Virus record (IMG/VR): IMGVR_UViG_3300035698_012414 | Location: 1 to 22,411 of that record | Source: a virus | Reading direction: 5' to 3' (one strand) | DNA length: 22,411 nucleotides | In this document: positions 3,886-21,271 of the stretch, in pieces | How positions within the stretch are numbered: the first letter of the stretch is position 1 | How the letters are laid out: every line of letters starts with the position of its first letter | Notes under the pieces: model-generated | What the model was told of the DNA's origin: nothing | What the model saw: the letters and a program-made list of their open reading frames with translations, nothing else | Database searches by the model: none | Translations under genes and position numbers: made by a program

Positions 3886-3890
3886 AAATA

Positions 3891-4277: not shown

Positions 4278-4295
4278 ATGGAGGAATAATCAAAA

Positions 4296-5459: not shown

Positions 5460-5469
5460 TTCTCATAAA

Positions 5470-5522
5470 AATTATATAATTTCAAACAATGTTTATATAG
5501 CTCAAAACTATATATAATATAA
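5470..5522 (+). promoter_or_regulatory. Archaeal-type promoter of the tail operon (copy 2 of a shared block)
   Basis: A TATA box GTTTATATAG lies at 5491-5500. It is preceded by the same 20 bases (5470-5489) as in the head promoter and followed by the same AT-rich start region (5510-5522). The two blocks align without gaps over 53 bases. The expected transcription start is near 5521, giving an ~80-base leader before the ATG at 5602. Confidence 0.72.
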
Positions 5523-5529
5523 GAAAAAG

Positions 5530-5584
5530 TCACCATGGACACTCTTTCAGTGAGAAAGGCTATTGTGTCGTGCTAATCCAGTGA
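5530..5584 (+). other. Possible structured 5' leader with a 13-codon upstream ORF
   Basis: Three complementary pairs nest within the leader: TCAC 5530-5533 with GTGA 5581-5584, GACAC 5538-5542 with GTGTC 5565-5569, and CTTTC 5544-5548 with GAAAG 5554-5558. The same stretch holds an ATG-TAA mini-ORF at 5535-5576 (begins MDTLSV). GAGGAGAT of the tail terminator gene follows at 5583, so the outer pair touches the SD. Helices this short can arise by chance; a regulatory role is speculative. Confidence 0.3.
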
Positions 5585-5601
5585 GGAGATAATACTAAAA
5601 T

Positions 5602-6051: not shown

Positions 6052-6063
6052 GGAGATGATAAG

Positions 6064-6378
6064 ATGAAAACAACATTAAAATACATAGGCCAACATCAAA
6101 ACAAAGACAACTATGATGTTGACACAAGAAAAGTAGACGATTTATTGCAGACAGGAAACTATATTCTGATAGACTCTGCAGAATCAAGCATAATCAAGGA
6201 AATAATCAAAGAACAGGGTGAGCCTAAAAAGGTTAGGCCAAAAAGATTTCCTAAAGAATATTGGAGTGAGGACGAAATTCATGAGTGGGTATTATTACAC
6301 AACCCTGAACTAGAATACTCTCCAGAAAATCATACTAAAAAATACATTTTAGAACGTATTAAGGAGGCATATAAATGA
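6064..6378 (+). CDS. Unrecognised small charged protein of the tail module
   Basis: 104 aa behind AAGGAGATGATAAG. I do not recognise the family. The N-terminal half has strands (TTLKYIGQHQN, NYILIDSAE). The C-terminal half is helical and charged, ending YSPENHTKKYILERIKEAYK, which loosely recalls small HeH/SAP-type helix-extended-loop-helix modules. A linking function between tail terminator and tube is possible from position. It overlaps the tail tube start by ATGA and carries that gene's AAGGAGG. Confidence 0.5.
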   Translation: MKTTLKYIGQHQNKDNYDVDTRKVDDLLQTGNYILIDSAESSIIKEIIKEQGEPKKVRPKRFPKEYWSEDEIHEWVLLHNPELEYSPENHTKKYILERIKEAYK

Positions 6379-7370
6379 GTATTTACGTATCAGATAAATC
6401 ACAAGTAATATTTTCATATGAAAGTGGAACCTACGCTAACAGCAGCGGGGCAGGACAATGGTTTGGTGAGGTTCAAAATCATACTATTGAAGACAACGAA
6501 AATTATATTGGAATAAGAAGTGTAGGTGCAGGAACTAGGAATGTTAATAGTTTTGTACAAACACAAAGAGATCACACTGGAACACTAACATACTATCCAC
6601 AAGATTGGAAGATGCTAGGTTTAGCTATTGGGAGCATGGTCGACGGTGGAGCAGGACCTTTCTCTCACACTTTCGCCGAAACTAATGCAGCAGACGGAAA
6701 CGCTTTTACTAGCGGTACAAGTTGTCCGCCAATGAGTTTAAGCATTGAAGACGTTTATGATGCAGGAACTGCTGGAAGTAACTTTGTAAGAACACTTGCT
6801 GGTTGTGTGGTTGATAGTTATTCATTCAGTGCTACTGAAGGAGAATTAGTATCAGCAGAAGTTGGTTATTTAGCGCAGTCTAACACGTACTCAAGTGGTG
6901 CAAAGACAGCAGTAACACCAGCAACGACAAGACCGTTTATGTGGAGAGATATAAGTGTACATATTCCTAGCGGAACTATACTTAATGAAGTTAAAGATTT
7001 CAACTTTTCAATAAGCAACAATCTAGTTGGACCTCATTATCTCAACGGAAGCAGGGATATTTCAGCACCTATTCCTACTAATAGAGAATATGAAGTTACC
7101 ATAACAGCAAACGCAACAGCTCAATGGGTTAAACCATTGTATGATCAATACTTCCGAGGCGGAAGCACGTTCAATATTATGACACGAGCTGTTGATGTTG
7201 GAGCTGGAGCTGGAAGCAGAGATATGACTCTGTCACTATCAGGGTGTGTGGTAAGTGAGTTCGAAGCTGCTAATCCTAACGAGGGAATTGACGAGTTTAG
7301 CTTGACAATTATGCCTAAGTCTGCTAGTGCAGTAATAAACGACGCAATTACATTATATAATCCGTATTAG
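6375..7370 (+). CDS. Major tail tube protein
   Basis: 331 aa behind AAGGAGG. The sequence is strand-rich with little helix, and the second half contains the usual tube pattern: ILNEVKDFNFSISNNL, GSRDISAPIPTNREYEVTITAN, FNIMTRAVDVGAG, then MTLSLSGCVVSEFEAANP and DEFSLTIMPKS. Long-tailed viruses build the tube from hexameric rings of this protein, stacked on the tape measure. Its place directly before the chaperone and tape measure genes is diagnostic. It is longer than the commonest tube proteins (about 150-250 aa), which suggests an extra surface domain, probably in the N-terminal half. Confidence 0.78.
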   Translation: MSIYVSDKSQVIFSYESGTYANSSGAGQWFGEVQNHTIEDNENYIGIRSVGAGTRNVNSFVQTQRDHTGTLTYYPQDWKMLGLAIGSMVDGGAGPFSHTFAETNAADGNAFTSGTSCPPMSLSIEDVYDAGTAGSNFVRTLAGCVVDSYSFSATEGELVSAEVGYLAQSNTYSSGAKTAVTPATTRPFMWRDISVHIPSGTILNEVKDFNFSISNNLVGPHYLNGSRDISAPIPTNREYEVTITANATAQWVKPLYDQYFRGGSTFNIMTRAVDVGAGAGSRDMTLSLSGCVVSEFEAANPNEGIDEFSLTIMPKSASAVINDAITLYNPY

Positions 7371-7372
7371 AT

Positions 7373-7388
7373 AGGTGGTTTTCCACCT
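7373..7388 (+). promoter_or_regulatory. Hairpin directly after the tail tube gene
   Basis: AGGTGG (7373-7378), TTTT loop (7379-7382), CCACCT (7383-7388): a perfect 6-bp stem, two bases after the tube gene stop, followed by a short pyrimidine run. It is a candidate attenuator or mRNA 3'-end stabiliser, which would let the tube be made in excess over the chaperone and tape measure. There is no long T tract, so full termination is unlikely. Confidence 0.5.
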
Positions 7389-7412
7389 TCTATTACGCAA
7401 TAGGAGAAAAAC

Positions 7413-7793
7413 ATGAGTGAATATTTAAAGAAAGAAGGAACATTGTTTGAAAGGGATGAATCAGGAGAGTTACTTCCTGTAGAGGTTATAGTAGAGTCTT
7501 TAGATAATGCAAAAATACTTGTTAGACCAATACCAAAAGGCAAAATGAATGAACTAGCATTGGCAGCAAAGACAGGTGAAACTTCTAAGAACACTGATGA
7601 TTTGATAATCTTAGAGCATTGTATAGAACCCAAGTATACTGAAGAAGAAATAACCAGGCTTAACCTTAAGATGACTAATGCATTAGCATTGTCAATATAC
7701 GCATTGTCACTGGGACTTGATCAGAAAACAATTGAAGAACAACAAGTAAAGACAGCTGTTGATAATCAGAACGCAGAGTTAAAAAAAAATTAG
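7413..7793 (+). CDS. Tail assembly chaperone, short form (gpG-like)
   Basis: 126 aa behind TAGGAG. Acidic and partly helical: an N-terminal strand region (VEVIVESLDNAKILVRPIPKGKMNEL) is followed by helices ending ALALSIYALSLGLDQ. It lies between tail tube and tape measure, the invariant place of the chaperone. The reading frame ends immediately after a run of nine A, the hallmark of the G/G-T frameshift genes of long-tailed phages. The short form is expected to coat the tape measure protein during tube assembly. Confidence 0.78.
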   Translation: MSEYLKKEGTLFERDESGELLPVEVIVESLDNAKILVRPIPKGKMNELALAAKTGETSKNTDDLIILEHCIEPKYTEEEITRLNLKMTNALALSIYALSLGLDQKTIEEQQVKTAVDNQNAELKKN

Positions 7794-7972
7794 CTAACAA
7801 GCGAATGATCAATTTTCTGCATGATTATGGGTATAATCTGTTTAGTATACCTAAACTGACATATCCAGAAATTAATTATCTGGTTGATGCATACAATGCT
7901 GAACAGAAAGAGAAAGTAAAGGAATCAAACAGACAAGAGAAAAGAAACAAAATGAGGAATAAAACAAGATAA
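7413..7972 (+). CDS. Tail assembly chaperone, -1 frameshift fusion (gpGT-like)
   Basis: Slipping back one base on A9 (7781-7789) leaves the zero frame just before its TAG (7791-7793). Translation then continues through 60 open codons (LANKRMINFLHDYGYNL ... ending RNKTR) to the TAA at 7970-7972, which overlaps the tape measure ATG (TAATG). The fusion would be about 186 aa. The extension contains YPEINYLVDAYN and a very basic tail, like T domains that hold the tape measure. Without the shift, 7794-7971 would hold no gene in an otherwise gapless operon. The mechanism is inferred from the slippery sequence and gene order. Confidence 0.8.
7781..7789 (+). other. Programmed -1 ribosomal frameshift site (A9)
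   Basis: Nine A follow TT, and in the zero frame this reads TTA AAA AAA AAT TAG. A-AAA-AAA fits the X-XXY-YYZ rule in the correct phase, and so does A-AAA-AAT three bases later. It lies at the end of the chaperone short form, where the -1 frame is open for 60 codons. No strong downstream hairpin is obvious. Transcriptional slippage on A9 could give the same product. Confidence 0.8.
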
Positions 7973-9723
7973 TGGTTAATCTAGGAAGTCTAGGCGCTGG
8001 TTTAGCAGGTGGTGCTGCAGTATCGATAATTATAAGAGCTGTTGATGAATTCTCTGGAACTTTTGATAAAGCTGGTAAAGAGATGGCTACTTTCAATGCG
8101 CAAACGCTAGCACTTTCAGGTGCTTTTGCAGCATTAGGAGCAGCTGGTGTTCTAGCGTTTGCTAAAATAACCAAGGAAGCTGGTAAGTTAGAACAATCAC
8201 AAGTAGCATTCACAACATTATTAGGGAATGCTGAACAAGCAACAGAATTTCTTCAAGAGCTAGCAGATTTCGCGGCAAGAACACCATTTACTCTCCCAGG
8301 CGTTGAGAAGGCTGCTAGACAATTATTAGCAGTTGGTTTTGAAGCAAGAGAAGTTAAACCCTTACTGAAAAGCGTGGGTGATGTTGCTTCAGGTTTAGGC
8401 CTGGGTGAAGAGGGGTTACAAAGATTAATATTAAATCTCGGACAAGTAAGAAATCAAGCTAAACTCACAGGAAGAGAACTAAGAGATTTTAGTGTTGCTG
8501 GTGTTCCAATGCTTGACGTGCTAGCACAAAATCTTGGCAAGACCACAAAAGAAATCCAAGGAATGGTTACAGCAGGGCAAATAACTTCTAAACACGTTAT
8601 CAAAGCATTCGAATCAATGTCATCAGAAGGCGGAAAGTTTTTTAATCTCATGGAAAAGCAATCAAAAACACTCGACGGTCAGTTATCAAACCTTAATGAT
8701 TCATTTATCCAACTATCAAGAGAACTTGGTCAGGTACTACTACCAGTAATCAAAGGCGTAGTTTCGGGAATATCAACAGCTATAGAACTATTTAGGGAAA
8801 TGCCAGGTCCTTTGAAAACTTTAGTTGTTGGAATAGGAGCACTAGCTGTTGCGTTATCATTCGGGTTCGCAGGATTTTTAGCTTGGCAGGTTATCGTTCC
8901 GCCATTGATGCTGAGCTTGGGCGGCTTATCATTACAAGTAGGAATATTTACTTTAGCAGTTAGAGGATTATTAGCTACTGTTGCTCCATTCGCTTTAATA
9001 TTTACCGGTATTGCTTTGGCGATTATGAAATTACAAGACTCAATGCCTGAAACTACTAATGCACTTGGCTCTTTAGATTCAGGAATGAATAATTTTACAG
9101 GCACTACTCTGGTAGGCCTTAAGACAGGAATGGAGGATGTCAATAACGAATTTGATGAGCTCATGAGTAACATGACAAACCTTTCTGACTTTTTACTCCC
9201 TGGTGAAGGAGCAGCACGGCAAGAGATCCTGGACTTAGAAAAACAAATAAATGATGAGAAAAAGAAGATAAGTAAGGATCTTACAAATACTGAAATAGGA
9301 AATATCAATGCTAGGATTAAATTTCTGGAAGGTAGTCTTGCTACGAAAAAGGAAGACTTACAAACTGATTTCTTAAACGAGAAAAAGCATATTGAGGATA
9401 CAATAAAATTATATGGTATGTATGGTAACAAAGTCACAGATGTAATGCAAGATGTTATTGACAAGATAAGAGAAGGGACAGACGCAATAAAGCTTCAAGC
9501 TGGAGCTTTACAAAAGATATTCCGGGGATTCGCTCCTCTAGAAAACAGGCCTGCTCCAACTTTTGATCCTAAATTCGCTCCTCCTATATCACAACCTGGG
9601 TTTCCTAACCAAGGTTCAACCAGCACGTTTATTTTTAATGGAGACATTTTCGGAACTGATCCTGACGAACTGACAGAGGCAATGCAAGAAAAGCTAAGTC
9701 TTATGATCAGGAGCGGTGGATAA
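7972..9723 (+). CDS. Tape measure protein
   Basis: 583 aa. Residues ~70-240 carry the conserved tape measure N-terminal domain: EQSQVAFTTLLGNAEQATEF, LADFAARTPFTLPGVEKAARQLLAVGF, LGQVRNQAKLTGRELRDFSVAGVPML. A strongly hydrophobic region at ~282-352 should span a membrane several times and may help DNA entry. Charged coiled coil lies at ~410-480, and the C-terminus is Pro-rich. The protein sets tail length; at ~0.15 nm per residue, 583 residues suggests a tail of about 85-90 nm (inference). It is short for the family. No lysozyme or peptidase domain is visible. The start overlaps the chaperone fusion stop. Confidence 0.9.
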   Translation: MVNLGSLGAGLAGGAAVSIIIRAVDEFSGTFDKAGKEMATFNAQTLALSGAFAALGAAGVLAFAKITKEAGKLEQSQVAFTTLLGNAEQATEFLQELADFAARTPFTLPGVEKAARQLLAVGFEAREVKPLLKSVGDVASGLGLGEEGLQRLILNLGQVRNQAKLTGRELRDFSVAGVPMLDVLAQNLGKTTKEIQGMVTAGQITSKHVIKAFESMSSEGGKFFNLMEKQSKTLDGQLSNLNDSFIQLSRELGQVLLPVIKGVVSGISTAIELFREMPGPLKTLVVGIGALAVALSFGFAGFLAWQVIVPPLMLSLGGLSLQVGIFTLAVRGLLATVAPFALIFTGIALAIMKLQDSMPETTNALGSLDSGMNNFTGTTLVGLKTGMEDVNNEFDELMSNMTNLSDFLLPGEGAARQEILDLEKQINDEKKKISKDLTNTEIGNINARIKFLEGSLATKKEDLQTDFLNEKKHIEDTIKLYGMYGNKVTDVMQDVIDKIREGTDAIKLQAGALQKIFRGFAPLENRPAPTFDPKFAPPISQPGFPNQGSTSTFIFNGDIFGTDPDELTEAMQEKLSLMIRSGG

Positions 9724-11259
9724 ATGGTAATATACACTAAAGCAACCATTGCAGGAACTGACTACAGAGATATTGAACAGATCGAGGTTAACAAGGACAT
9801 CAGCGCTAATAATACTAGTGGAAGTTTTAAATTCACGTTTCGTAACGATATAGGAATCAACAAAGATAATTTCACCACTGGTGATGACGTACAAATATTT
9901 GCTGACTCAGGAACCAATCCACCAACTACTAAACTCTTTCGAGGAGTTATTAGTAGTGTTCAATTCAAAGGAAAAAGCACTAATGAAAAGCTTTTAGTTC
10001 AAGGTCGGGATTACACTTCAGTATTTCAAGACGTTAGTGTCAGTCCTGTAGTTTATAACAACACAGAAGTTAGTGCAATAGTTACTGACTTGATTGCAAA
10101 TCATGCGTCTGATATCACTGTTTCCAATGTTCAAGTAACCACAACAACCCTAGGACATATCCGTTTTAATCATCTTAATTTATACGATGCTTTAACAGAA
10201 CTTGCTGATCGTGTGGAATATTATTTTTTTGTTGATACCGATCTTGACTTGCACTTTGCCCCGAAAGGAACTGTGAGTAGTGGATTAACTTTTGATAGCG
10301 ATAACACAACCAGTAGTAACTTTAAGACTACTGATAGAGAATTGTTTAATGAAATTTGGGTTTATGGTGACAGAACTCTCCACGGTAGAAAAGAAACATT
10401 CACCGGTGATGCTGCTGGAAGTGTTTTTCAATTGACCAGCAGTCCTCATAATACAGAAGTATCGGTTGATGGAACAGTGCAGAAAGGTGGGGTGTTCGAA
10501 CTAAATCTTACTACTAGCGGAACACAGTACTTAGTTGATTATGATCAGAGAAATATTATTTTTGTTAGTGGTACTGATGCTGGTGATCATACTCCTGGTG
10601 TAGGTGTTGACAATATAGTAATTAATTATGATCGTTTAACTCCTATCGTGAAACTTGCTGAGGATGACGCGAGTATTGGCACACATGGAAGAAAGTCTAA
10701 AATAATAACTGATAAAAGTATTACGCAAGCATCTCAAGCACGTGATGTTGCGATTAACACTCTTGCCAGATTCAAGGATCCTAGAACTGAGGGAACTGTG
10801 CAACTAAATGGTGTTCTTGTATTGACTCCTGGAGAGTCGGCTATTGTAAACTTTCCTTACGAGGGAATAAATAACGAAACACAATCCATCATTGAAGCCT
10901 CATACACGTTTAACAAGATTAATAATCAAAAAGAGACAGTGGCTAGAGTTCGGCTTAATGAAAGAATAGGAAACCTTACAGACACAGTTAAAAAGATCAT
11001 ACTGGACATTAAAAAGATCCAAGCATCAGACGCTCAAGAAACAGATATTATTACTAGACTCAAAAGTAGTACTGCCACATCTAGCGTTAAAGCTTCTTTA
11101 TGGTCTGTGACTACTAGAACTATTGACAACACATTTATATTTGGACACCCGACTAATGGAAAGATAGGAAGTCCTGTTGTGGGTGTTGGCGGTGGTCAGG
11201 TTGTTATTGGAGATGCAAGAAGTGCCCAAACAATCAACATTAGCGGGGTTGAGTTATGA
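9724..11259 (+). CDS. Tail hub / baseplate hub protein (gp27/gpD-like)
   Basis: 511 aa, starting directly after the tape measure stop. The N-terminal ~230 residues show the hub pattern: strands with GSFKFTFRND, GDDVQIFADSG, KLFRGVISSVQFKGKSTNEKLLVQGRDYTSVFQDV, then ALTELADRVEYYFFVDTDLDLHF. The last is the typical second barrel of gp27/late-control-gpD-like hubs. An inserted strand-rich domain (~250-310) and a long helix (LTDTVKKIILDIKKIQASDAQ, ~425-445) precede a Gly-rich C-terminus. In this position the protein would cap the tip of the tail and bind the fibres. No endopeptidase domain is recognised. Confidence 0.72.
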   Translation: MVIYTKATIAGTDYRDIEQIEVNKDISANNTSGSFKFTFRNDIGINKDNFTTGDDVQIFADSGTNPPTTKLFRGVISSVQFKGKSTNEKLLVQGRDYTSVFQDVSVSPVVYNNTEVSAIVTDLIANHASDITVSNVQVTTTTLGHIRFNHLNLYDALTELADRVEYYFFVDTDLDLHFAPKGTVSSGLTFDSDNTTSSNFKTTDRELFNEIWVYGDRTLHGRKETFTGDAAGSVFQLTSSPHNTEVSVDGTVQKGGVFELNLTTSGTQYLVDYDQRNIIFVSGTDAGDHTPGVGVDNIVINYDRLTPIVKLAEDDASIGTHGRKSKIITDKSITQASQARDVAINTLARFKDPRTEGTVQLNGVLVLTPGESAIVNFPYEGINNETQSIIEASYTFNKINNQKETVARVRLNERIGNLTDTVKKIILDIKKIQASDAQETDIITRLKSSTATSSVKASLWSVTTRTIDNTFIFGHPTNGKIGSPVVGVGGGQVVIGDARSAQTINISGVEL

Positions 11260-11408
11260 CTCTTAAGAAAGATTTTGTTCCTAAGAAACGGTTTAATGAT
11301 TGGGCTTGGGAACTACAAAAAAGGTGGAGTGCATTGTCTAGCACGCAAAAGAGAAGTACCGAACCTGTTGATATACTAAATAATATAATAAGGGAGGATT
11401 TAGAGTAA
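11256..11408 (+). CDS. 50-aa protein of the tail module
   Basis: The ATG at 11256 overlaps the hub stop (ATGA) and the TAA at 11406-11408 overlaps the next ATG (TAATG), so it fits the operon without a gap. The product is basic and Trp-rich near the start (MTLKKDFVPKKRFNDWAWEL), with a helical acidic end (VDILNNIIREDLE). Its 3' end includes the GGGAGG of the next gene. No family is recognised. Exact coupling on both sides is the main evidence that it is real. Confidence 0.7.
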   Translation: MTLKKDFVPKKRFNDWAWELQKRWSALSSTQKRSTEPVDILNNIIREDLE

Positions 11409-11764
11409 TGGTAATGACAGAAGCAGGGAAGAGCGGTCTTGCATTATTAATGGCTGATGGTTCTGCTGTTCCGCGGTATTGTGGAACAGGAACGGGAAGC
11501 GGAACTGCATTAAACACCAACAATGACTTGGTGGCAGAAGCAGGATCAAGAGCTGATTATAGCGATAGAGATGCAACCATACAAAAACAAGTAACTTGGA
11601 CGTATGATTTTAATAGCATACAAATGAGTGGGCTTGATCTTACAGAGTTTGGACAATACTCAGGATCGTTGACAGGTAGTGTATTCATGAGAGAATCATT
11701 CCCAGCAATAGAGTTTGACGGAACCAATGAATTACAAGTTCAAATTACACTAAAACACACATAA
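11408..11764 (+). CDS. Tail tip / baseplate-like structural protein
   Basis: 118 aa behind GGGAGG. The second half has a pattern seen in short tail-associated proteins: KQVTWTYDFNSIQMSGLDLTEFGQYSG, GSVFMRESFPAIEFDGTNELQVQITLKHT. I know this as a recurrent phage virion pattern but cannot attach a family name. It is beta-rich with no membrane segment. Its position between hub and fibre-like gene supports a role in the tail tip. Confidence 0.5.
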   Translation: MVMTEAGKSGLALLMADGSAVPRYCGTGTGSGTALNTNNDLVAEAGSRADYSDRDATIQKQVTWTYDFNSIQMSGLDLTEFGQYSGSLTGSVFMRESFPAIEFDGTNELQVQITLKHT

Positions 11765-11777
11765 TGGAGGACATTAA

Positions 11778-12413
11778 ATGACAACTTTAAACGAAAAATA
11801 TGATGACGGATTCTATCTCCCTGTGGGCGTTAGTGGAGCAAACGCAGGGGCTAGTGGGATTAATGACATCACACAACAAATAAATCTTAATACTCAAGAC
11901 TTAATAGACGGAACTGGAACCACACCAGGAATTGGTTTAAGAATTGCACAGTGGAGAGTACCTGGGGAGTTTATAACAGCCTCAGCAACATTCGCGACAT
12001 TGGGGAGTACTTATCTTAGCCCAAACAGTACAAATAATATTCTTGTTGGAATGAACGTTGACACAAACATCAAAATTGATGTTGCTAATGAAGGAACCAT
12101 CAAGTTCAGAATTATTCCCTCACAAGCAGGACTGGCTACATACGAAACACTTATTGGTAATGCCCAAGGAGGAGTAATTAATCAAACATCCAGTGGTACT
12201 AGTTACAATCAGAAAGTCGCAGGATATGCTATCACAAATACGTTTAATACTGCTGATGCTGCTGAAGGGTTATACCAAGCACAAATGGGTGCTGGTAGTT
12301 ACCAAATTCAATTCCAAGGAATTATTGGTGGTGGCGGGTCAATATTCATGAGCGGGACAAGTGTTGACATATATTATATGGATAATGCAATTAGCGGAGC
12401 AGTGTTGAGTTAA
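11778..12413 (+). CDS. Tail fibre-like protein
   Basis: 211 aa behind ATGGAGG. A Gly-rich N-terminus (VGVSGANAGASGINDITQQIN) precedes strands arranged like a jelly-roll head: FATLGSTYLSP, ILVGMNVDTNIKIDV, GTIKFRIIPSQAG, YQIQFQGIIGGGGSIFMSG. Small receptor-binding or fibre-tip domains of tailed viruses have this look. No collagen repeats or esterase motifs are seen. It is the last beta-rich virion candidate before the membrane proteins, the usual place of the fibre. The host receptor is unknown. Confidence 0.5.
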   Translation: MTTLNEKYDDGFYLPVGVSGANAGASGINDITQQINLNTQDLIDGTGTTPGIGLRIAQWRVPGEFITASATFATLGSTYLSPNSTNNILVGMNVDTNIKIDVANEGTIKFRIIPSQAGLATYETLIGNAQGGVINQTSSGTSYNQKVAGYAITNTFNTADAAEGLYQAQMGAGSYQIQFQGIIGGGGSIFMSGTSVDIYYMDNAISGAVLS

Positions 12414-12766
12414 TGGATAAATCAAGTAGTATTATGACAACAAGTAGCGATGACGTAAAAATAATGTTTGAACGATTACACGAAGTTACCACACACTTGA
12501 CAGAGATCAAGGTTGACACTGCAGATATTAAGCGACACTTGAAAGACTTAAATGGAAGTGTTGCAAGACACGAAAAACAGTTTAACAAAACTGATAATGA
12601 ACTTCGGGAAATAGAACAAGACTTACGAGCTCTTGATAATACTATTTCTGAGAAGACTACTATACCAATAAAAAAATTGGTGTTTTATTTAATAACTGGC
12701 GGAGGAAGTGCGGGAGTCGCGACTGGCGGTATCTTATACGTTCTCTTAAAGTTTGTAGGAATATAA
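12413..12766 (+). CDS. XhlA-like coiled-coil protein with C-terminal membrane anchor
   Basis: 117 aa. Residues ~12-80 form an amphipathic coiled coil (VKIMFERLHEVTTHLTEIKV, HEKQFNKTDNELREIEQDL), followed by IPIKKLVFYLITGGGSAG and a hydrophobic C-terminal segment (~89-115). The layout, coiled coil plus one C-terminal transmembrane helix, is that of XhlA-type proteins, which act with a small holin in phage lysis. It is paired here with a holin-like gene. The start overlaps the fibre stop (TAATG). A role in lysis is inferred. Confidence 0.6.
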   Translation: MDKSSSIMTTSSDDVKIMFERLHEVTTHLTEIKVDTADIKRHLKDLNGSVARHEKQFNKTDNELREIEQDLRALDNTISEKTTIPIKKLVFYLITGGGSAGVATGGILYVLLKFVGI

Positions 12767-12785
12767 TAATTGGAGGAAAATTAAT

Positions 12786-13049
12786 ATGTTAATAGAAGCA
12801 ATAAGCATTGCTGGAGCAGGATTTTTTCGTGCTTTCAGTGGATGGTTAGAAAATAGTTTACAGGATGGGAAAATCCAAACTGTTGAATGGGTTAAACTTG
12901 GAGAGACAGCAATCAGATTTACTGTAATAGGAGCTGGTGTATATTTTGGTACCGACCTTGAACCAGTTGCTGCGGGTGCTGTAACCTTACTTGCTAGTTT
13001 AGTTTATGACAAATTGAACAAAACAAGCCAAACAAAGAAGAAACGATAA
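12786..13049 (+). CDS. Holin-like small membrane protein
   Basis: 87 aa behind TTGGAGG. Two hydrophobic segments (~2-18 and ~48-76) flank a polar, Trp-containing stretch (SGWLENSLQDGKIQTVEWVK), and the C-terminus is strongly basic (NKTSQTKKKR). Small size, two possible membrane passes and a basic tail are standard for holins, which form membrane holes at the end of infection. It follows the XhlA-like gene and ends the tail/lysis operon. No endolysin gene follows, as expected for a host without peptidoglycan. Confidence 0.55.
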   Translation: MLIEAISIAGAGFFRAFSGWLENSLQDGKIQTVEWVKLGETAIRFTVIGAGVYFGTDLEPVAAGAVTLLASLVYDKLNKTSQTKKKR

Positions 13050-13700: not shown

Positions 13701-13701
13701 A

Positions 13702-13764: not shown

Positions 13765-13887
13765 ATGACTATTTCTCAATGCTATTATTGTTTTGAACAC
13801 TATAACAAAATAGTCACTTTAGAATACGCTTGTAAAGATTGCGTTATACTACATCAAGAATCTCTTGAGCACATCGATCCCAACTGA
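13765..13887 (+). CDS. Possible 40-aa zinc-ribbon mini-protein
   Basis: ATG at 13765 to TGA at 13885-13887. The product has two CxxC pairs, QCYYCF and ACKDCV, 16 residues apart, the spacing of a small zinc ribbon. Both pairs fall in the 87 bases between the terminator and the convergent GT4 gene; only the C-terminal tail overlaps that gene's 3' end, antisense. Against it: no SD is visible and a terminator sits just upstream. It may be real, leaderless, or a gene remnant. Confidence 0.35.
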   Translation: MTISQCYYCFEHYNKIVTLEYACKDCVILHQESLEHIDPN

Positions 13888-14929
13888 ATTCTTTAGCTTT
13901 TAACAAGGCTTTTTCTTTCTTGGATGAATATACTACTTTGTTAACGAAAGCTTCTCTCATGGCTTCTTTGATAGCTTTGACGCTAGGTTCTTGCCATGAT
14001 ACACCCTCATATAACAAGTCCCAAGTTACAGGTTTTAGTTTTCCAGGAATAAGCCAAGAATTGTCCGATTTTGCATATTCAGTCTGACCACCGAAATCAC
14101 TTTGTATGGTCGGCAATCCACAAGCCATAGCTTCTAATCCTGCAAGATTAAACGAGTCTGCCATTTGTGTACAGACATAAACATGACAACCATTATACAT
14201 AATAGATAACTGTTGCGGAGTTAGTACTTCAGTATTAATTTTTACGTCTGGACTGTTCTCATTGATTTCAAGGCCCAACTTTGTAACTTCTGTCTTAAAA
14301 TCCCACCCTGGAGAAATGTATGATGGGTTTATTTTGACAATCATTTGCACAGGATCATCTTTAGTGAATTCTTCAAAGTATGCTTTAATTGCATACTGTG
14401 TTCCTCCACGGTCATTAATCCCGCTAGGCCATCCTTTGTTAAGTAGGAATGTAAACTTTTCATGCTTTACTATTTCTTTATCTTCAGAAAATATTTTGTG
14501 TTCTACACCATAAGGAATAACTTTAACTTTATCTAGAATACTACACTCAGAGTTTTTGATACAGTCTTTTGTGTGTTGTGAAGGTACGATTAATGTGTCT
14601 ATTCTTTCATCTTCTAATAGTTGTTTCATTCCATCTGATAGCTTATTTCCTTCCCATAAAAAACAGCCTATAAACTTACTTGTTTCTTCTGTTAGAAGAG
14701 AGAAGTATCCTTGTGGCAACATTATAGCCATGGCTGGAATAGTTGTATCAAAAGGTCTTTTAAACATTATTAGTTCGTCATCAGTGCACATTCCTTCCCA
14801 CCCTTGTGGCATATTAGTTTCAAGTTTAACTTCACACTTCCTGTTCAATGCGTTAGCAAGAAACCTTGAAACCGTAGCGTATCCTGTGGTGTCAAAGTAT
14901 TGCGTGGTTATTATATTTAGTTTATTCAT
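13844..14929 (-). CDS. Glycosyltransferase, GT-B fold, GT4-like
   Basis: 361 aa. The N-terminal Rossmann half begins INIITTQYFDTTGYATVSRF-like, with the TGYATVSR loop seen in viral GT4 enzymes. Mid-protein VKVIPYGVEHKIF is the usual domain linker. The C-terminal half carries ADSFNLAGLEAMACGLPTI (~257-274), the donor-binding E-x7-E motif with Asp258 in place of the first Glu and Glu266 as the second. It would transfer a sugar from a nucleotide donor with retention. It is the last gene of the left-going operon, overlapping the GT2 upstream by 8 bases. The acceptor is unknown. Confidence 0.82.
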   Translation of the reverse strand: MNKLNIITTQYFDTTGYATVSRFLANALNRKCEVKLETNMPQGWEGMCTDDELIMFKRPFDTTIPAMAIMLPQGYFSLLTEETSKFIGCFLWEGNKLSDGMKQLLEDERIDTLIVPSQHTKDCIKNSECSILDKVKVIPYGVEHKIFSEDKEIVKHEKFTFLLNKGWPSGINDRGGTQYAIKAYFEEFTKDDPVQMIVKINPSYISPGWDFKTEVTKLGLEINENSPDVKINTEVLTPQQLSIMYNGCHVYVCTQMADSFNLAGLEAMACGLPTIQSDFGGQTEYAKSDNSWLIPGKLKPVTWDLLYEGVSWQEPSVKAIKEAMREAFVNKVVYSSKKEKALLKAKEFSWDRCAQEILDVV

Positions 14930-15851
14930 TTATTGGTCCTCCAACGATCAAGTTTGTTGATTTTGTTTTGTTCTCCTCAAACTGTATAGACAAAGCGTCT
15001 TCACTGATTCCTATCTTCTTATTGTAATTGCTTATGAAGTCTCCGTGTGTCTGGAGAAGCTTTTTCGTGTGTCTTTTGAGTACGAACTCATTAAGTTGCA
15101 TTAGCTCATTGTAGTCAGCTCTTCGGTCACCACCGCTAGGTGTCTGCAAATGATAAGCTTTAGCCCCAGTGTGAACTCCTATAGTAAAGCCATTAGTTAT
15201 AGCATCAAAACTAAACATTTGTTCTTCACGGAATCCGCATTTAGATAGTTCGTCAGAATACTTAATCTTTTCGTGCACTTCTCTCTTGATTAATGCACAC
15301 GAACGGAAATGATGCGCTGGTAACAAAACTTCATCAACGTATACATGTCCGCAGTCATCAAAGTTTCCTAAGAAGTTTCCTTTCTTGTCTAGCGTTACAG
15401 CATTGACTACTGGACAAGCGTATAATGTGCTTCTAGGAATGGTGTTCGCACCAAACAGTGGAACAACACCACTAACTATGTCGTAACTTTTAATTCCTGT
15501 CATTAATTTTTCGATATATTCTGGCTCTGCTACACTGTCGTCATCTATTCGTAAAAAGTATTTTGCTTTACTATTCTTTAATCCTTCATCAGCCATTTGC
15601 TGACGCATTCTACTAACACCCATGCTTATATCATTTCTTGCTATAATAACTCTATGCCCTGCGATTCTAAACCTTGTTGCTATCGCATTGAGATAGTGTT
15701 GTGATTGCACAGGAATCGTTCCTGCATCATCTAATATAAATATACTAAAATTCTTGTATGTTTGTGTTAACAAACTATTCAATAAGCCGTACAATTCTGC
15801 TGGCCTGTCTTTTGTTCCTATTAGTACCATTACTTCTTCTTTAACATTCAT
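14922..15851 (-). CDS. Glycosyltransferase family 2 (GT-A fold)
   Basis: 309 aa behind GGAGTAG. It has the GT2 layout: VMVLIGTKDRPAELYGLLNS at the start, LLTQTYKNFSIFILDDAG with Asp41-Asp42 for nucleotide binding, and YFLRIDDDSVAEPEYIEKL, in which Asp103-Asp105 form the metal-binding DxD. The later part (HVYVDEVLLPAHHFRSCALI, GFREEQMFSFDAI) matches the acceptor side with an ED-like base motif. It is an inverting sugar transferase of unknown acceptor. It overlaps the nuclease gene by 11 bases and the GT4 gene by 8, so the three are co-translated. Confidence 0.85.
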   Translation of the reverse strand: MNVKEEVMVLIGTKDRPAELYGLLNSLLTQTYKNFSIFILDDAGTIPVQSQHYLNAIATRFRIAGHRVIIARNDISMGVSRMRQQMADEGLKNSKAKYFLRIDDDSVAEPEYIEKLMTGIKSYDIVSGVVPLFGANTIPRSTLYACPVVNAVTLDKKGNFLGNFDDCGHVYVDEVLLPAHHFRSCALIKREVHEKIKYSDELSKCGFREEQMFSFDAITNGFTIGVHTGAKAYHLQTPSGGDRRADYNELMQLNEFVLKRHTKKLLQTHGDFISNYNKKIGISEDALSIQFEENKTKSTNLIVGGPINE

Positions 15852-16176
15852 ATATATCTACTCCTTTGATTCTGTCTTTAATTACCCAGACTTGGTATTT
15901 AATATTATCTGCTCGGTATATGTCAGCAAATTCTTCGTATTCTTTTAATGGTGGTTTAGTATTACTTTTTACTTGTACATGAAGAACCTGAGTTTCTTCA
16001 TTTTCAGTCCTTGGCTTCATGGCTATTATATCCCATAACCCATAAAAGTCAACATTCTTGTTATATAATGTGCTTCCCTTTACCCGTTGCGCGATCCACC
16101 CTTTTTTTAGTAATATTTGTTCTGCTTGTATTTCCCTACGAAATCCCTTAGCTCTGGTGTTTATTTTTCCTGCCAT
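15841..16176 (-). CDS. PD-(D/E)XK nuclease-like protein (Hjc/VRR-like)
   Basis: 111 aa behind GGAGTTAAAAAATA. The fold signature is visible: basic start with GFRREIQAEQILLKKGW (Glu15), RVKGSTLY, then LWDIIAMKP (Asp49) and VLHVQVKSN (Gln68-x-Lys70). This is E...D...(E/Q)xK of the PD-(D/E)XK superfamily, with Gln in the usual Glu place, a change known in some active members. Archaeal Holliday junction resolvases and VRR-type nucleases share this pattern and size. It is oddly placed inside a glycan operon, overlapping both neighbours. Resolvase versus restriction-type nuclease cannot be decided here. Confidence 0.68.
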   Translation of the reverse strand: MAGKINTRAKGFRREIQAEQILLKKGWIAQRVKGSTLYNKNVDFYGLWDIIAMKPRTENEETQVLHVQVKSNTKPPLKEYEEFADIYRADNIKYQVWVIKDRIKGVDIYEC

Positions 16177-17312
16177 TATTTTTTAACTCCTATTATTAGT
16201 TGATGTTTGAACAAGAAATATTCAGGAACAGGTAGAAATATGAAATACTGTGCTAATTTATTAAGCCACCACTCTCTCGTTTCTTTAATTATATGTGTAG
16301 GGTCAGCATCAAGATTAGGATCTCCAATGAAAGGAATAGAAAACAGAAAGTTCTTTGTTCCTGAAGCACGAATATTCTCCAGCACTGTGTCAATGTCTTC
16401 ATAAGAGATATGTTCTAGTAAGTCGTAAGCAATAACCAAGTCATAGTCGCCATCGTATTGGTCTTTAGTAATGTTTCCTTGTAATACTCGCCCCTTAGCA
16501 GGGCTGGAGTTTACTGCATACTTACTTTTTTCTATCCCCACAGCATCCATTCCTAGTCTGTTCATGGCATAAACCCTTGGCCCAACTCCACAGCCAATTT
16601 CTAAAATCTTTTTTGGTTTGAAGTATGTGTTCCAGTCTAAAGCGTCCATGAAGTGTGTTCCTTGTATGCTCATTCTTGTACTAAAATATTCTCTGTCTGC
16701 TTTAAAGTCTTCATCTCGGTAATTGTCTAATACTAAACATAGTACTCCTTCAGAATCATAAATGTCTTTTTCATTAATTATGTGCAATGGCATGAAACCG
16801 AAACTTTCAAACAACATGATCCACATTTCTTTAGTAAGTCGTAACCTATGGGTTTTGTCATTTCTTGAGCATTCTAAAACATAGTCTCCATACATTCTTT
16901 TACTCACAGGAACCCTGATAATTAATTTATTTGGATTTGTATTCCTGAAATGTTTCATGGTTCTTATCAAATCACTATAATTCATGTGCTCCAGAACATC
17001 TAAACAGGTTATTACATCTGTCTTAAATGCTCTTTCTCCAATCACATTCTTAATTTTTGGATATAATTCTTTGCCGTGATTAACAGCCCACTCTGAAGTA
17101 TCATACCCTGAAACATTTTTGAATCCTAATTTATGGAGTTCACTTAGCAACTTTCCGGTAGCGCAACCATAGTCATAAATATGATTGTCAGGATTAATTG
17201 TTCCCACTTTAATAATGTCTTTGGCTAGTTGTTCGTAACTACGTTCATCATAATTCTTATAATTACTAAATTTAGAATTCAGGAAGTACGATTCGTCATA
17301 TAAATTTGTCAT
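16176..17312 (-). CDS. Fused double SAM-dependent methyltransferase
   Basis: 378 aa behind GGAGG. Two class I methyltransferase domains lie in tandem. The first (~40-200) has YDYGCATG (47-53), VSGYDTSEWA and CLDVLEH (103-109). The second (~225-378) has LEIGCGVG (237-244), AVGIEKSKYA and AYDLLEH (295-301), followed by DADPTHI and TREWW, motifs seen in sugar and lipid methyltransferases. Both keep the Gly-rich SAM loop, so both may be active. Substrates are unknown; methylation of a glycan built by neighbouring transferases is inferred. It overlaps the radical SAM gene by 17 bases and the nuclease by TAATG. Confidence 0.82.
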   Translation of the reverse strand: MTNLYDESYFLNSKFSNYKNYDERSYEQLAKDIIKVGTINPDNHIYDYGCATGKLLSELHKLGFKNVSGYDTSEWAVNHGKELYPKIKNVIGERAFKTDVITCLDVLEHMNYSDLIRTMKHFRNTNPNKLIIRVPVSKRMYGDYVLECSRNDKTHRLRLTKEMWIMLFESFGFMPLHIINEKDIYDSEGVLCLVLDNYRDEDFKADREYFSTRMSIQGTHFMDALDWNTYFKPKKILEIGCGVGPRVYAMNRLGMDAVGIEKSKYAVNSSPAKGRVLQGNITKDQYDGDYDLVIAYDLLEHISYEDIDTVLENIRASGTKNFLFSIPFIGDPNLDADPTHIIKETREWWLNKLAQYFIFLPVPEYFLFKHQLIIGVKK

Positions 17313-18390
17313 GAGGAACCTCCACTTCTAGCCCGTGTAACATCCTGTTTTGTCCAGCATAAAAACACTTACCAGCATAACAATTACTAGTATCCATTAC
17401 AGGGAGATTAGAAGGCCAAATATCTTTAACGTCCTTCATGCTTCCAATCTTCCAAGCTTCACTAAAGTTACCGGTATATAATGGAGAAGCTGAACACTGG
17501 TACAATTTACCATCGCTATTAAGGAACGGTTTCAAACGACCTATTCTACAAGCGTCATGAATATCGTAAGATTTCGATTGAAAAAACATTCCTGGAAACT
17601 CTTCCATGAGTGGAGTAATTGCTTCCTTGTATTCTGCTTGTTGTTCAGGACTTTGGCAGTTAGGAACAATACGAACAAATGACGGCCTGCTACGCTTAGC
17701 AAACTCACTGATCTTTTCAAGCTTGGAAATATCTGAGCCTGGAGTCCAAACGTATGACAAGCCTAACGTTCCTTTAATTTCAGGAATAACAATCGAATCC
17801 AGAGGATCTCTTTTTGTCGTGTCACCATCATTCCCATAATAATTTTCTGCGTCAAGGAATGACATTGATATTCTCATCCACTTTAATGTGTCAAGTGTGT
17901 CTTGTGGAACCTTATTCAATAATAAACCATTGGTTATCATTCCAACATCAACATCTTTACTATCGAGATAGTCGACAAGTCTAGGAAGTTCTTTATACAT
18001 TGTAGGATCACCACCACCGGTAATTTCAGCACTTAGTATTGGCCCAACATCAACAAAGTCATCAATGCAATCCTCAAGATCTCCAATTGGTATGGTGTCT
18101 CCTTCGCGGTTCCATGTTGAACAAAAACCACATTCAAGATTGCAATTGTCTGTTGGTGATATTTGTAAAGTTATAGGACGCCATACTCCTCTTTTCGCAT
18201 CTTCAAGTCTATCAAGATGTTGTAACATTTTAGTTCCTGTTGAGGTGTATACTGACTCGAGCATCTTCTTATCGTCAGGAGGAATGTCTGCCTCGTTTCT
18301 TCCTCTGGCATTGTTTTCACCAGCAAACGTATGCACATTATCAACCAGGTCTCGTAACTTCTCAATCTTTTTTTTAGTTTTGAATTCCAT
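17296..18390 (-). CDS. Radical SAM enzyme with SPASM/twitch-like C-terminus
   Basis: 364 aa. CNLECGFC (Cys83, Cys87, Cys90) is the CX3CX2C cluster motif that binds the 4Fe-4S centre and SAM; ITGGGDPTMYKE (~123-134) is the GGE-like SAM-binding motif. An ~70-residue N-terminal extension precedes the barrel. Cys281, Cys299, Cys337 and Cys342 near the end suggest an auxiliary cluster of the SPASM or twitch type. Such enzymes modify peptides or sugars (epimerisation, dehydrogenation, thioether formation). The substrate is unknown; here it lies between a GT2 and a methyltransferase. The SD is weak, so translation probably depends on coupling with the upstream GT2 (17-base overlap). Confidence 0.85.
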   Translation of the reverse strand: MEFKTKKKIEKLRDLVDNVHTFAGENNARGRNEADIPPDDKKMLESVYTSTGTKMLQHLDRLEDAKRGVWRPITLQISPTDNCNLECGFCSTWNREGDTIPIGDLEDCIDDFVDVGPILSAEITGGGDPTMYKELPRLVDYLDSKDVDVGMITNGLLLNKVPQDTLDTLKWMRISMSFLDAENYYGNDGDTTKRDPLDSIVIPEIKGTLGLSYVWTPGSDISKLEKISEFAKRSRPSFVRIVPNCQSPEQQAEYKEAITPLMEEFPGMFFQSKSYDIHDACRIGRLKPFLNSDGKLYQCSASPLYTGNFSEAWKIGSMKDVKDIWPSNLPVMDTSNCYAGKCFYAGQNRMLHGLEVEVPHDKFI

Positions 18391-19159
18391 CTGTTTGTTG
18401 TTTAATTATTTCTTCAATATGAAACTTTTCTTTTATCACTTCAGGATGACTCCGTAGCACTTGAATATAATATGTTATAGGATATGGAATAACAGGCTGG
18501 CCTGGATACGTTCCTGTAATCATATGATAAAATTGCCATTTAAGATATGCATCACGATTCTGAGACTTGTCACTAGAGTTTGTTTCATACCTTCGTAACG
18601 CATCAATCATGTTTTTACAGAATCCATAATGGTGTACCAAAATAAAGGGTATGGTACTACTGGTTTTTGCTCCTTCAGCAAGACCGTGCATTGTCCCGTC
18701 TTTATATTTTATTGATGGAATGCGTTTGAATAGTCTGTTCTGCCATATGTGAACGTTTGTTGTTCTATCAAAATGTACAAGATCACCCATGTAATGTTCT
18801 CCATGTAAATTAAAACATTCAATCTTAGGATTGTCAATTAGTAATTTTTTGAGGTGTTTAATTTCTTCACTAAACACTTCATCACAGTCAGTGGTTAAAA
18901 CATAATCACATGTAGCTTTTGATACAGCAAAATTCTTACAAGTCGTGTAGTCTTCTGGAACAGCAAACTCTTTATAGTATTGTTTAACCATGGGGTATTC
19001 ACGTGTAAGAAATCCTAATGTCCCGTCGACGCTTCCTGTATCTACATAAATTATTTCGTCACAAAACGTTAATGCTGACTTAATAACTTCTTCTAGAAAG
19101 TACTTCTTTTCGTCCTTTCCTATAAGGCACAATGAGATAGTTGGCTCAGGGTTTGCCAT
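18374..19159 (-). CDS. Glycosyltransferase family 2 (second copy, divergent)
   Basis: 261 aa from the ATG at 19159, chosen because GAGGAG lies 8 bases upstream and the product begins MANPEPTISLCLIGKDEKK, right at the GT2 fold; a longer ORF to 19201 has no SD. DEIIYVDTGSVDGT (~34-47) and LTTDCDEVFSEEI (Asp91-x-Asp93) are the nucleotide and metal sites. MHGLAEGAK and LVHHYGFCKN follow, as in the Kdo/SunS-like GT2 group whose members glycosylate lipids or peptides. It overlaps the upstream GT4 by 14 bases and the radical SAM gene by 17. Confidence 0.84.
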   Translation of the reverse strand: MANPEPTISLCLIGKDEKKYFLEEVIKSALTFCDEIIYVDTGSVDGTLGFLTREYPMVKQYYKEFAVPEDYTTCKNFAVSKATCDYVLTTDCDEVFSEEIKHLKKLLIDNPKIECFNLHGEHYMGDLVHFDRTTNVHIWQNRLFKRIPSIKYKDGTMHGLAEGAKTSSTIPFILVHHYGFCKNMIDALRRYETNSSDKSQNRDAYLKWQFYHMITGTYPGQPVIPYPITYYIQVLRSHPEVIKEKFHIEEIIKQQTDGIQN

Positions 19160-20456
19160 TAATTTGCTCCTCGAATAATTTGTCGAACTTATCAATAACA
19201 ATATCCCAAGTATAATTTTCTATAACTGCTTTCCTTCCGTTAGCACCCATTTCTTTTCTTAATTCAGGATCCTTGTATAACGTATATAGTTTATCTGCAG
19301 CATCATCAATACAACACAACCCTCTCTCGACATTCCAAGATCCTGTTTGTGTTCCATTGATTAATTTCATATCATAATCCTTAAAGTTTTCAGAAAAAGG
19401 ATCAACAGAGCATACTTCATCATCAACACCAGCAAGGTTTATAGCCAATCCCGACTTGTACTCAAGGATTAATTCTGGAGTTGTTGTATAATTAGTTGCT
19501 AGAACAGGAACAGCACAACTCATAGCTTCAATAATAGGAACTCCGAACCCTTCACCGCTCGTGGTTAGGATATGAACATCCATCGCATTATATACAGAAT
19601 TCATTTTTTCGTATGAGAACCCGCTGAAGTATTTCATTCCTGTAAATTTAACTCTGTTCTCAAGATTGAATCGTTGAATTAAGAGATCAATCCTGAAAAG
19701 CGTTGCTATGTCATTAGGGTCTATGTGAAGCAGTAGTCTTGCGTCTGGAACGTCATACTTTGTTATGAACTTGTAGAATGACTTAATAGTCCTGTCAAGA
19801 TTCTTTCTAGGTTGATTCCTTGCAACACTCCCCACAACAAAACATCCTTGCAGGTTCCACTCAGCCTTGCATTTTTGTCTTTCGTACTCGCTTAATGGCT
19901 TAAAGTTCTTTTCGTCAACAGCTGCTGGAATATATTCTGTGTCTAGTCCGTGATAGTCTTTAGCTTGTTTTTGTCCAAACTTTGCCATTGCTATGGTGAA
20001 GCTACACTTTTTCAGAACGTTCTCACAACCTGTAGGTAGCCCTCCTCCTCCGTCTGTAGGATAATAGAATGCTGACTTTGTAGGACTAAAATCAAGATTT
20101 AGAAACCATGGGTTTCCTTGAATCATCATGAATGTGTCAAGTAGTGTAACAAAAATGTCAGGCTTTAATTGTTTTATTGTCGGCTCAATAATATCTGCAC
20201 AGTATGGAGCTCTCCCGCTTGTTCCATGTAGTGCATAATTAATTTTTGTTCCGCCCTCAAGCGTCCACCCTGGCAGTACATCAACTTGTGGAAGGCATTT
20301 AGCAACTAACAAGTTATGACAAAGTTGGTGACACTCCCAGCCTTTCTTTGTTAGACCATTTAGAATGTTTAGTGTCATTGTAGCGTATCCTGTTGAAACC
20401 AAGGGCGAATCCGAGAGCCATAACAAAACTCCCTTCTTTTTAATATTTTTTTTCAT
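19146..20456 (-). CDS. Glycosyltransferase, GT-B fold, GT4 family
   Basis: 436 aa behind GGAGG. The N-terminal half has LLWLSDSPLVSTGYATMTLN, with the same TGYAT loop as the GT4 at the operon end, so the two may be distant paralogues. TEYIPAAVDEKNFKPL links the halves, VVGSVARNQPRKNLD is the donor-side strand with the RKNLD motif, and TSGEGFGVPIIEAMSCAVPVL has Glu302 and Glu310 as the E-x7-E pair. All motifs of a retaining GT4 are intact. It overlaps the HNH gene by ATGA. The acceptor is unknown. Confidence 0.87.
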   Translation of the reverse strand: MKKNIKKKGVLLWLSDSPLVSTGYATMTLNILNGLTKKGWECHQLCHNLLVAKCLPQVDVLPGWTLEGGTKINYALHGTSGRAPYCADIIEPTIKQLKPDIFVTLLDTFMMIQGNPWFLNLDFSPTKSAFYYPTDGGGGLPTGCENVLKKCSFTIAMAKFGQKQAKDYHGLDTEYIPAAVDEKNFKPLSEYERQKCKAEWNLQGCFVVGSVARNQPRKNLDRTIKSFYKFITKYDVPDARLLLHIDPNDIATLFRIDLLIQRFNLENRVKFTGMKYFSGFSYEKMNSVYNAMDVHILTTSGEGFGVPIIEAMSCAVPVLATNYTTTPELILEYKSGLAINLAGVDDEVCSVDPFSENFKDYDMKLINGTQTGSWNVERGLCCIDDAADKLYTLYKDPELRKEMGANGRKAVIENYTWDIVIDKFDKLFEEQINGKP

Positions 20457-21046
20457 TGCAATGCCTCCAGTTTATTTAATATTTTTTCGTGGAAATGCTG
20501 TTGCCAGTAATTTCTTTTACCATTCGCTCTTGCATTACAAGCAAAACATAATGTGATGAGATTTTCCTGGTTACTGTGTTTCTTATCATAATCAATATGG
20601 TGGATACTTAGCATCTTTTTATCAGTGAGAGAACATTCTTGGCAAGTATGACTATCCCTATCCCTTATTTTATTTTTTAATTGTTCATTAAAGGCAGGAG
20701 CATAAGGATGTGTTGAGATCCCCCCTTTCCAATTGGGATTATTCTCTAGTTTAAGTTTTGTGGATTGCTTAAGAGCGATGCTTAAATTTTTTTTATGTGA
20801 TTCTGTTTTTTTATTGCCTATAGTCCTCTGAGACATTAACTCTTTATGTGCCTTCGTTCTCTCATATGGTTTTATTTTTCCACTAGCGAACCTTGCTTTT
20901 CTTGTTGTGGTTAGTTTATTGTTTGCTTCGTTTGTTCTTTTCCATGTTTTCCCTAAAGACCCTCTTGGTGAAGGGTTTGTTTTGTACCATTCTTTTTTTA
21001 TTCTACTCATGTTATCTTTATATTCTTGAGAATTCATTTTTGCCAT
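20453..21046 (-). CDS. HNH endonuclease, homing-type
   Basis: 197 aa behind AGAGGT. The N-terminal ~100 residues are basic and repetitive, with short NUMOD3-like stretches (KTNPSPRGSLGKTWK, RTIGNKKTESHKKNLSIA) typical of DNA-binding arms. The C-terminal domain is HNH: NWKGGIS, TCQECS (Cys135, Cys138), IHHIDYD (His149-His150), NQENLITLC, CFACN (Cys167, Cys170). The four cysteines bind structural zinc. Free-standing HNH homing enzymes are common in tailed viruses and cut intron- or gene-free alleles. It sits between the AbrB-like gene and the first GT4 and overlaps the latter, so it is now part of the operon. Confidence 0.85.
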   Translation of the reverse strand: MAKMNSQEYKDNMSRIKKEWYKTNPSPRGSLGKTWKRTNEANNKLTTTRKARFASGKIKPYERTKAHKELMSQRTIGNKKTESHKKNLSIALKQSTKLKLENNPNWKGGISTHPYAPAFNEQLKNKIRDRDSHTCQECSLTDKKMLSIHHIDYDKKHSNQENLITLCFACNARANGKRNYWQQHFHEKILNKLEALQ

Positions 21047-21082
21047 TGAGATACCTCTGGAAAGATTTTACCTTTAGGTTTC

Positions 21083-21271
21083 TTATTCATACTGTTCAGC
21101 TCCACTTGGAGTGTATGTTATTTGCGTTCCGCTGATAATCACGTTGTATGTTGCATGCATGAATTCCTTTGCGAATTGGTACGGAACGGTTAAAGAATAA
21201 TTGTCACCTGTCGGATTGCCTTTTGTTGTAGCCCTGATTTTGTAGTGTTTTCTTAAAAATATTTGTGTCAA
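21083..21271 (-). CDS. Small AbrB-like DNA-binding protein, TTG start
   Basis: 62 aa. KIRATTKGNPTGDNYSLTVPYQFAKEF followed by YNVIISGTQITYTPSG resembles the swapped-hairpin AbrB/MazE fold (a TKxG turn, SLTVP strand, short helix, then a strand pair). Members bind DNA as dimers, often as repressors or antitoxins. The start codon is TTG at 21269-21271; no in-frame ATG exists near it, and AAGGGG lies just upstream. With a TATA box at 21307-21316 the leader would be only ~12-15 bases. As first gene of the glycan operon it could regulate it; this is inference, and no toxin partner is seen. Confidence 0.5.
   Translation of the reverse strand: MTQIFLRKHYKIRATTKGNPTGDNYSLTVPYQFAKEFMHATYNVIISGTQITYTPSGAEQYE

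Follow-up and report, generated by a model that had tools for sequence, protein, structure and literature searches.

A conserved glycan-synthesis operon beside the virion genes of an uncultured, likely archaeal virus

What could a virus be making with four glycosyltransferases (GTs), a radical S-adenosylmethionine (radical SAM) enzyme and a two-domain methyltransferase encoded in one operon, and on what would the product be placed? This question is raised by an uncultured virus known from a linear IMG/VR record (IMGVR_UViG_3300035698_012414, 22411 bp), which was analysed over its whole length and is called the window hereafter. The operon (13844-21271, minus strand) faces a plus-strand block of HK97-type head and tail genes. 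We report that many related viruses share its gene set and order, with dozens of them keeping the outer genes and exchanging the inner ones; a search for such conservation had been suggested by an initial annotation made from the sequence alone. We also propose that this glycan-synthesis island may produce a methylated, radical SAM-tailored short glycan assembled in the cytoplasm on a viral protein, a reading that we place a little below an even chance.

On the minus strand, the genes follow one another in the order 62-aa open reading frame (ORF), HNH endonuclease, GT4b, GT2b, radical SAM, tandem methyltransferase, 111-aa ORF, GT2a and GT4a. From GT4a through the HNH gene, neighbouring genes overlap by 1-56 nt, and a gap of 36 nt separates the HNH gene from the 62-aa ORF. 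Pfam, PHROGs and NCBIfam recover all the enzymes initially listed, namely two GT4, two GT2, one radical SAM protein and one protein with two methyltransferase domains; the 111-aa nuclease-like ORF, the HNH endonuclease and the 62-aa ORF had gone unmentioned. Such a one-strand overlapping unit, with four GTs, a radical SAM enzyme and two methyltransferase domains, has the composition of a glycan biosynthesis gene cluster. Among the window proteins scanned with these collections, none was recognised as a carrier-lipid transferase, flippase, polymerase or oligosaccharyltransferase; any of the first three would have marked an O-antigen-type export locus. Nor were membrane segments predicted in any operon enzyme. 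Because its neighbours are head and tail genes, as assigned with PHROGs and Pfam, the operon is viral: the flanks are virion genes and not host chromosome, in keeping with the initial view of a virus-encoded assembly and tailoring operon. The single visible promoter claimed at first was not borne out, since a sigma-70 scan gave 29 sites against 33.5 expected by chance, that is, no excess, and this model would not apply in an archaeon.

Relatives of the capsid protein were found in 25 viral contigs at 49-66% identity. The island was recognised in four of them (G004, G006, G007 and G013) and in a virus lying in a Candidatus Pacearchaeota metagenome-assembled genome (MAG), each time as a single strand-coherent block with the same end genes. 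The remaining capsid contigs are short or span mostly the head region and upstream genes, so the absence of the island from them is uninformative. Single-sequence scans of viral contigs with the radical SAM, GT4b and methyltransferase proteins gave nothing usable and profiles were needed: the GT2a profile led to 29 relatives or loci and that of GT4b to 127, of which 80 were kept. Among public phage records, neither the capsid protein nor GT2a has relatives. After removal of obvious duplicates, 25 contigs show both GT4b and GT4a and form our set of complete operons; as contigs were selected by the presence of GT2a or GT4b, the counts describe order and content and not the frequency of the operon among viruses. 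The order GT4b - GT2b - variable genes - GT2a - GT4a is found in 24 of the 25. GT2b is fused to a methyltransferase in 17, and a radical SAM gene, detected with local profiles, is present in 17 as well. Independent contigs, drawn from many metagenomes, have the block next to tail genes. The GTs also co-evolve: the distance matrices of GT4b, GT2a and GT4a agree with one another (r 0.79-0.85), those of GT2b and these outer three correlate at r 0.48-0.58, and the outer three correlate with a tail protein (r 0.48-0.55, Mantel p 0.001-0.042), a correlation that is not significant for GT2b. These results indicate that the outer GTs are passed on together and that they are also, though less tightly, linked in descent to a virion gene. 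We conclude that the operon is a trait conserved among viruses and that its general kind is already known. Virus-encoded virion glycosylation, radical SAM genes in phage glycan regions, and GT and radical SAM genes in archaeal virus contigs (PMC9723712) are already known; a full-text literature search, partial in its coverage, found no description of this conserved operon frame.

Between the conserved ends lie 92 inner genes in all. Matches to radical SAM number 22, those to the B12-binding domain 11 and those to a methyltransferase model about 14; GT2 accounts for 11, NAD-epimerase for 9, UDP-sugar dehydrogenase for 3 and cytidylyltransferase for 2. A PfkB kinase gene and a cytidylyltransferase-like gene are also present in one relative, a pair that resembles ADP-heptose synthesis, if function can be read from such likeness. 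The association of radical SAM chemistry with GTs, initially judged unusual, is thus common here, and radical SAM genes also lie in the glycan regions of pelagimyophages (PMC7029224) and of a cyanophage. The subtype of the window, GT4b - GT2b - (epimerase) - radical SAM - methyltransferase - GT2a - GT4a, occurs in four other contigs (L094, L097, L122, L124), and its second half, from the radical SAM gene to GT4a, occurs with inserted genes in two more (L190, L198). The 12 closest viral relatives of the radical SAM gene (score at least 390, a cut of our own; some contigs are near-duplicates) include nine that have a methyltransferase gene directly after them and a tenth that is separated from it by one small ORF. 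For three of the 12, a GT2 - radical SAM - methyltransferase trio is found outside the frame, in much larger viruses (L194, L196 and L197, contigs of 161 kb, 52 kb and 228 kb). This recurring adjacency argues that the radical SAM enzyme and the methyltransferase form a portable pair, which would explain the two-domain protein of the window. Indeed, its two domains have domain-specific relatives that are separate elsewhere: by sequence, the N-domain corresponds to the radical SAM partner and the C-domain to the methyltransferase fused to GT2b in relatives. What had been counted as three tailoring centres is better read as a radical SAM-methyltransferase pair and a methyltransferase normally belonging to GT2b. 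In G006 (IMGVR_UViG_3300009285_002889), three adjacent extra genes lie between GT2a and GT4a (L043:9333-11157); they encode a SAMP2-like ubiquitin-like protein (Pfam E 1e-4, below cut-off), a ThiF/E1-like protein (8e-15) and a protein that is JAMM-like by eye, with no Pfam match, and could be a ubiquitin-like conjugation cassette within a viral glycan operon.

What are these enzymes most similar to? A comparison of GT structures had been recommended and was run for GT2b: its predicted structure (pLDDT 91) has SunS and ThuS as nearest folds. In profile searches against the PDB, GT2b matches the GT domain of GmaR (6.3e-33, positions 4-195 of 237) and SunS (2.5e-16), and profile and fold together make its GT2 domain homologous to the GmaR/SunS type over its length. 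GmaR transfers GlcNAc to flagellin (PMC9638930), and the PDB names SunS and ThuS as glycocin S-glycosyltransferases. From profile and model, GT2b is a candidate protein-modifying transferase. In the radical SAM enzyme, the CX3CX2C core reads CNLECGFC, its three cysteines being invariant in the alignment, and the C-terminal part holds a C-x12-G-x4-C site and a later CxxxxC pair, which suggests that one auxiliary cluster site is likely. The initial annotation had called the enzyme SPASM-like; the Pfam SPASM model itself stays below its cut-off (E 0.042). Orthologs in viral contigs are 40-44% identical. A fold search matched DesII, BlsE, SpeY and BtrN, which act on sugars or sugar-derived substrates, as well as SuiB and viperin; with both sugar-type and peptide enzymes among the matches, no single reaction was picked out.

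An archaeal host is likely, since one relative encodes PCNA and a family B polymerase (PolB) and another lies in a Pacearchaeota MAG. The first, G007 (L045, IMGVR_UViG_3300017971_003303, 62886 bp), has a PCNA_N protein (6e-9), and its tape-measure gene extends off both contig ends, which suggests a circularly permuted, near-complete genome. Its region 4886-14557 carries PolB, PCNA and a PD-(D/E)XK nuclease together with FolE, QueC, QueE-like, QueD-like (PTPS) and TGT-like genes, likely a 7-deazaguanine DNA-modification set. The second emerged when peptide patterns of the capsid protein were searched for in 84,980 species genomes, where this MAG gave the one confirmed locus. Its contig C11 opens with the fibre repeats that close the capsid contig C14, and holds tail genes, the operon and a match to the G007 PCNA (local profile, not Pfam); the two contigs are probably pieces of one virus. 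Capsid relatives occur in 6 of 371 genomes of the phylum of this MAG, five of the six being distant. Nanoarchaeota/Pacearchaeota are our best lead for the host, bearing in mind that binning errors are possible in MAGs.

How might the operon work? The conserved frame (GT4b first, GT2b with a methyltransferase, GT2a and GT4a last) would make a short oligosaccharide from host nucleotide sugars, and the swappable inner genes, here the radical SAM gene and its partner methyltransferase, would alter one sugar chemically. Assembly would proceed sugar by sugar in the cytoplasm, with a viral protein, probably one of the virion, as acceptor: GT2b would attach the first sugar, GT2a and both GT4s would extend the chain, the methyltransferases would methylate sugars, and the radical SAM enzyme would introduce a change beyond the reach of ordinary enzymes, such as epimerisation, deoxygenation or dehydrogenation. 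A specific oligosaccharide, as first suggested, would be a plausible product. We favour direct stepwise glycosylation of a viral protein because GT2b matches GmaR and SunS, because the enzymes are devoid of membrane segments and because no carrier, flippase, polymerase or oligosaccharyltransferase gene was recognised; GmaR and SunS/ThuS themselves glycosylate proteins directly in the cytoplasm. Several points weigh against this proposal. No glycan has been seen. Support for a protein acceptor comes from one GT of four, and the resemblance to GmaR and SunS may be biased by the choice of relatives for which structures have been solved. As the window is only part of a genome, genes for a carrier or for export could be located outside it or be supplied by the host, and the Pacearchaeota MAG does carry an STT3-type oligosaccharyltransferase. 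No acceptor protein was identified, and N-glycosylation sequons are not enriched in the virion proteins of the window. One exception is a 144-aa protein with one membrane segment (21743-22177, minus strand), which has 7 N-x-S/T sites against 1.6 expected (uncorrected p 0.001 among 32 proteins) and no relative in related contigs.

The operon could instead remodel a surface glycan of the host during infection, be it the S-layer N-glycan or another saccharide of the envelope. It might, for instance, extend the dolichol-linked oligosaccharide of the host with further sugars. Such remodelling would serve to block superinfection or to help progeny to leave. The GTs of pelagimyophages have been read in this way (PMC7029224), as have, by analogy, those of archaeal viruses (PMC9723712). 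This explanation also gains from the STT3 of the MAG, from a weak match of GT2a to a dolichol-phosphate glycosyltransferase model (AglG, 1.7e-6, far below cut-off) and from the likeness of the variable inner genes to those of O-antigen loci. However, the operon lacks a membrane GT, a flippase and a carrier transferase, its outer GTs co-vary with a tail gene, and GT2b is closest to protein glycosyltransferases, so that we regard host remodelling as rather unlikely, while keeping it in view as a serious competitor.

Viral GTs can also glycosylate modified bases of DNA, as in T4, and the 7-deazaguanine genes of G007 might suggest an anti-restriction shield on virion DNA. Yet these genes sit outside the operon and require no sugar, the window shows no recognisable base hydroxylase or hydroxymethylase, and four GTs, with the epimerases and sugar dehydrogenases of relatives, better fit a free-standing oligosaccharide; we consider DNA glycosylation very improbable. 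Public collections contain some GT-rich contigs labelled viral that are in fact cellular, and a host surface-polysaccharide locus could have been misjoined to the virus in assembly, or a cargo set acquired once. This is contradicted by the repeated tail-gene neighbourhood in independent contigs and many metagenomes, and by the presence of the block in the 62.9-kb contig with a tape-measure gene that continues beyond either end, and we give it hardly any credence.

Returning to cytoplasmic glycosylation of a viral protein, we tentatively extend it, in a form that we hold less likely than not, to a group of uncultured viruses of Nanoarchaeota-like archaea. These would share a dedicated, largely host-independent protein glycosylation system, in which a fixed frame of four GTs and a methyltransferase surrounds a swappable radical SAM centre (MoaA-like or B12-dependent) that makes unusual sugars, so that every virus would bear a virion glycan of its own. 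Glycans made by viruses have been described chiefly in giant algal viruses and in some phages. If true, a fixed-frame, swappable-centre operon shared by many viruses whose uncultured archaeal hosts are probably DPANN would serve as a ready comparative system for variation of the coat, be it of virus or host. The operon also offers soluble enzymes, including radical SAM-methyltransferase pairs probably acting on sugars, and its gene order is a signature for finding such viruses.

The features of the window are collected in Table 1. The statement that all key motifs are intact was nearly right: in GT2b the DxD motif 'TDCDE' is conserved and in GT2a relatives the DDD and FREE motifs are invariant, but the first Glu of the GT4a EX7E motif is replaced by Asp (DSFNLAGLE), as in one relative. 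For GT2b, the ATG at 19159 is probably the start, because relatives lack the first 14 residues of the ORF, for which model confidence is also low. The 62-aa protein has no Pfam match; its family pattern (R-K-x-T...GD.YGITIP..IA..F) is AbrB-like by eye, and it may be a putative regulator. The HNH gene, whose relatives are found at scattered positions across related contigs, is probably a homing-endonuclease passenger, as is probably, in the sense of a passenger, the nuclease-like 111-aa ORF, for which no relative was found in related operons. Homing-type elements do invade the operon: inserted ORFs split GT4a in two in G004 (18970-20754) and L104 (11901-13606), the G004 insert being endonuclease-like by eye and an HNH ORF adjoining GT4a in that contig. 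Between tail genes and operon, the window encodes a membrane-anchored, very acidic protein of 182 aa (13152-13700, plus strand), and a similar-looking anchored protein occupies the corresponding position in the virus of the MAG (G016 C11 9882-10508).

Table 1. Position and assignment of the features of the window
Feature	Position	Strand	Assignment
Head and tail block	737..13049	+	HK97-type; protease, major capsid protein, neck, tail tube, tape measure, tail proteins; PHROGs/Pfam
GT4a, last frame gene	13844..14929	-	Glycos_transf_1 8e-10; PHROG 2170 1e-29
GT2a, penultimate frame gene	14922..15851	-	Glycos_transf_2 1.6e-12
111-aa PD-(D/E)XK / Holliday-resolvase-like ORF	15841..16176	-	PHROG Holliday junction resolvase 3e-4, weak
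Two-domain methyltransferase	16176..17312	-	Methyltransf_23 5e-24, two stretches
Radical SAM enzyme, probably of MoaA/SPASM-twitch kind	17296..18390	-	Radical_SAM 3e-10
GT2b, GmaR/SunS-like GT2	18374..19159	-	ORF opens at 19201
GT4b, first GT of conserved frame	19146..20456	-	Glycos_transf_1 2e-19; EX7E intact
HNH endonuclease	20453..21046	-	Pfam HNH 6e-7; PHROG HNH 1e-11
62-aa ORF, operon head gene	21083..21271	-	TTG start; relatives precede GT4b in 15/25 complete operons

Among known systems, bacterial O-antigen and polysaccharide loci have the same conserved edges and variable middle sugar genes, but the operon described here is viral, has few genes and includes no recognised polymerase, flippase or carrier transferase. 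GmaR, the Listeria flagellin GlcNAc transferase, and the peptide S-glycosyltransferases SunS and ThuS share their GT domain with GT2b over most of its length; unlike them, GT2b is without a TPR/antirepressor part and no peptide substrate gene was recognised nearby. In the mycobacteriophages Che8 and Rita, phage GT genes are linked to glycans of the major capsid protein (PMC11256854); these phages have a bacterial host and few GTs, and no tailoring operon is reported in that study. The GT-rich hypervariable regions of the pelagimyophage HTVC008M and the cyanophage SynMITS9220M01 likewise combine GTs, sugar-nucleotide genes and a related radical SAM-methyltransferase pair. However, both are T4-like bacterial phages in which the GT4b...GT2a-GT4a frame was not found and the radical SAM protein is only 24-27% identical. 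A further parallel to the reading proposed here is given by chloroviruses (PBCV-1) and mimiviruses, whose glycans are made by virus-encoded GTs without host transferases. These viruses are unrelated, their genes are scattered whereas ours form one ordered operon with a putative virion glycan, and their glycosylation as described (PMC4691112) does not include radical SAM tailoring. Nonetheless, A64R of PBCV-1 is a GT-methyltransferase fusion (PMC4691112), which parallels the fusion of GT2b to a methyltransferase in the relatives of the window.

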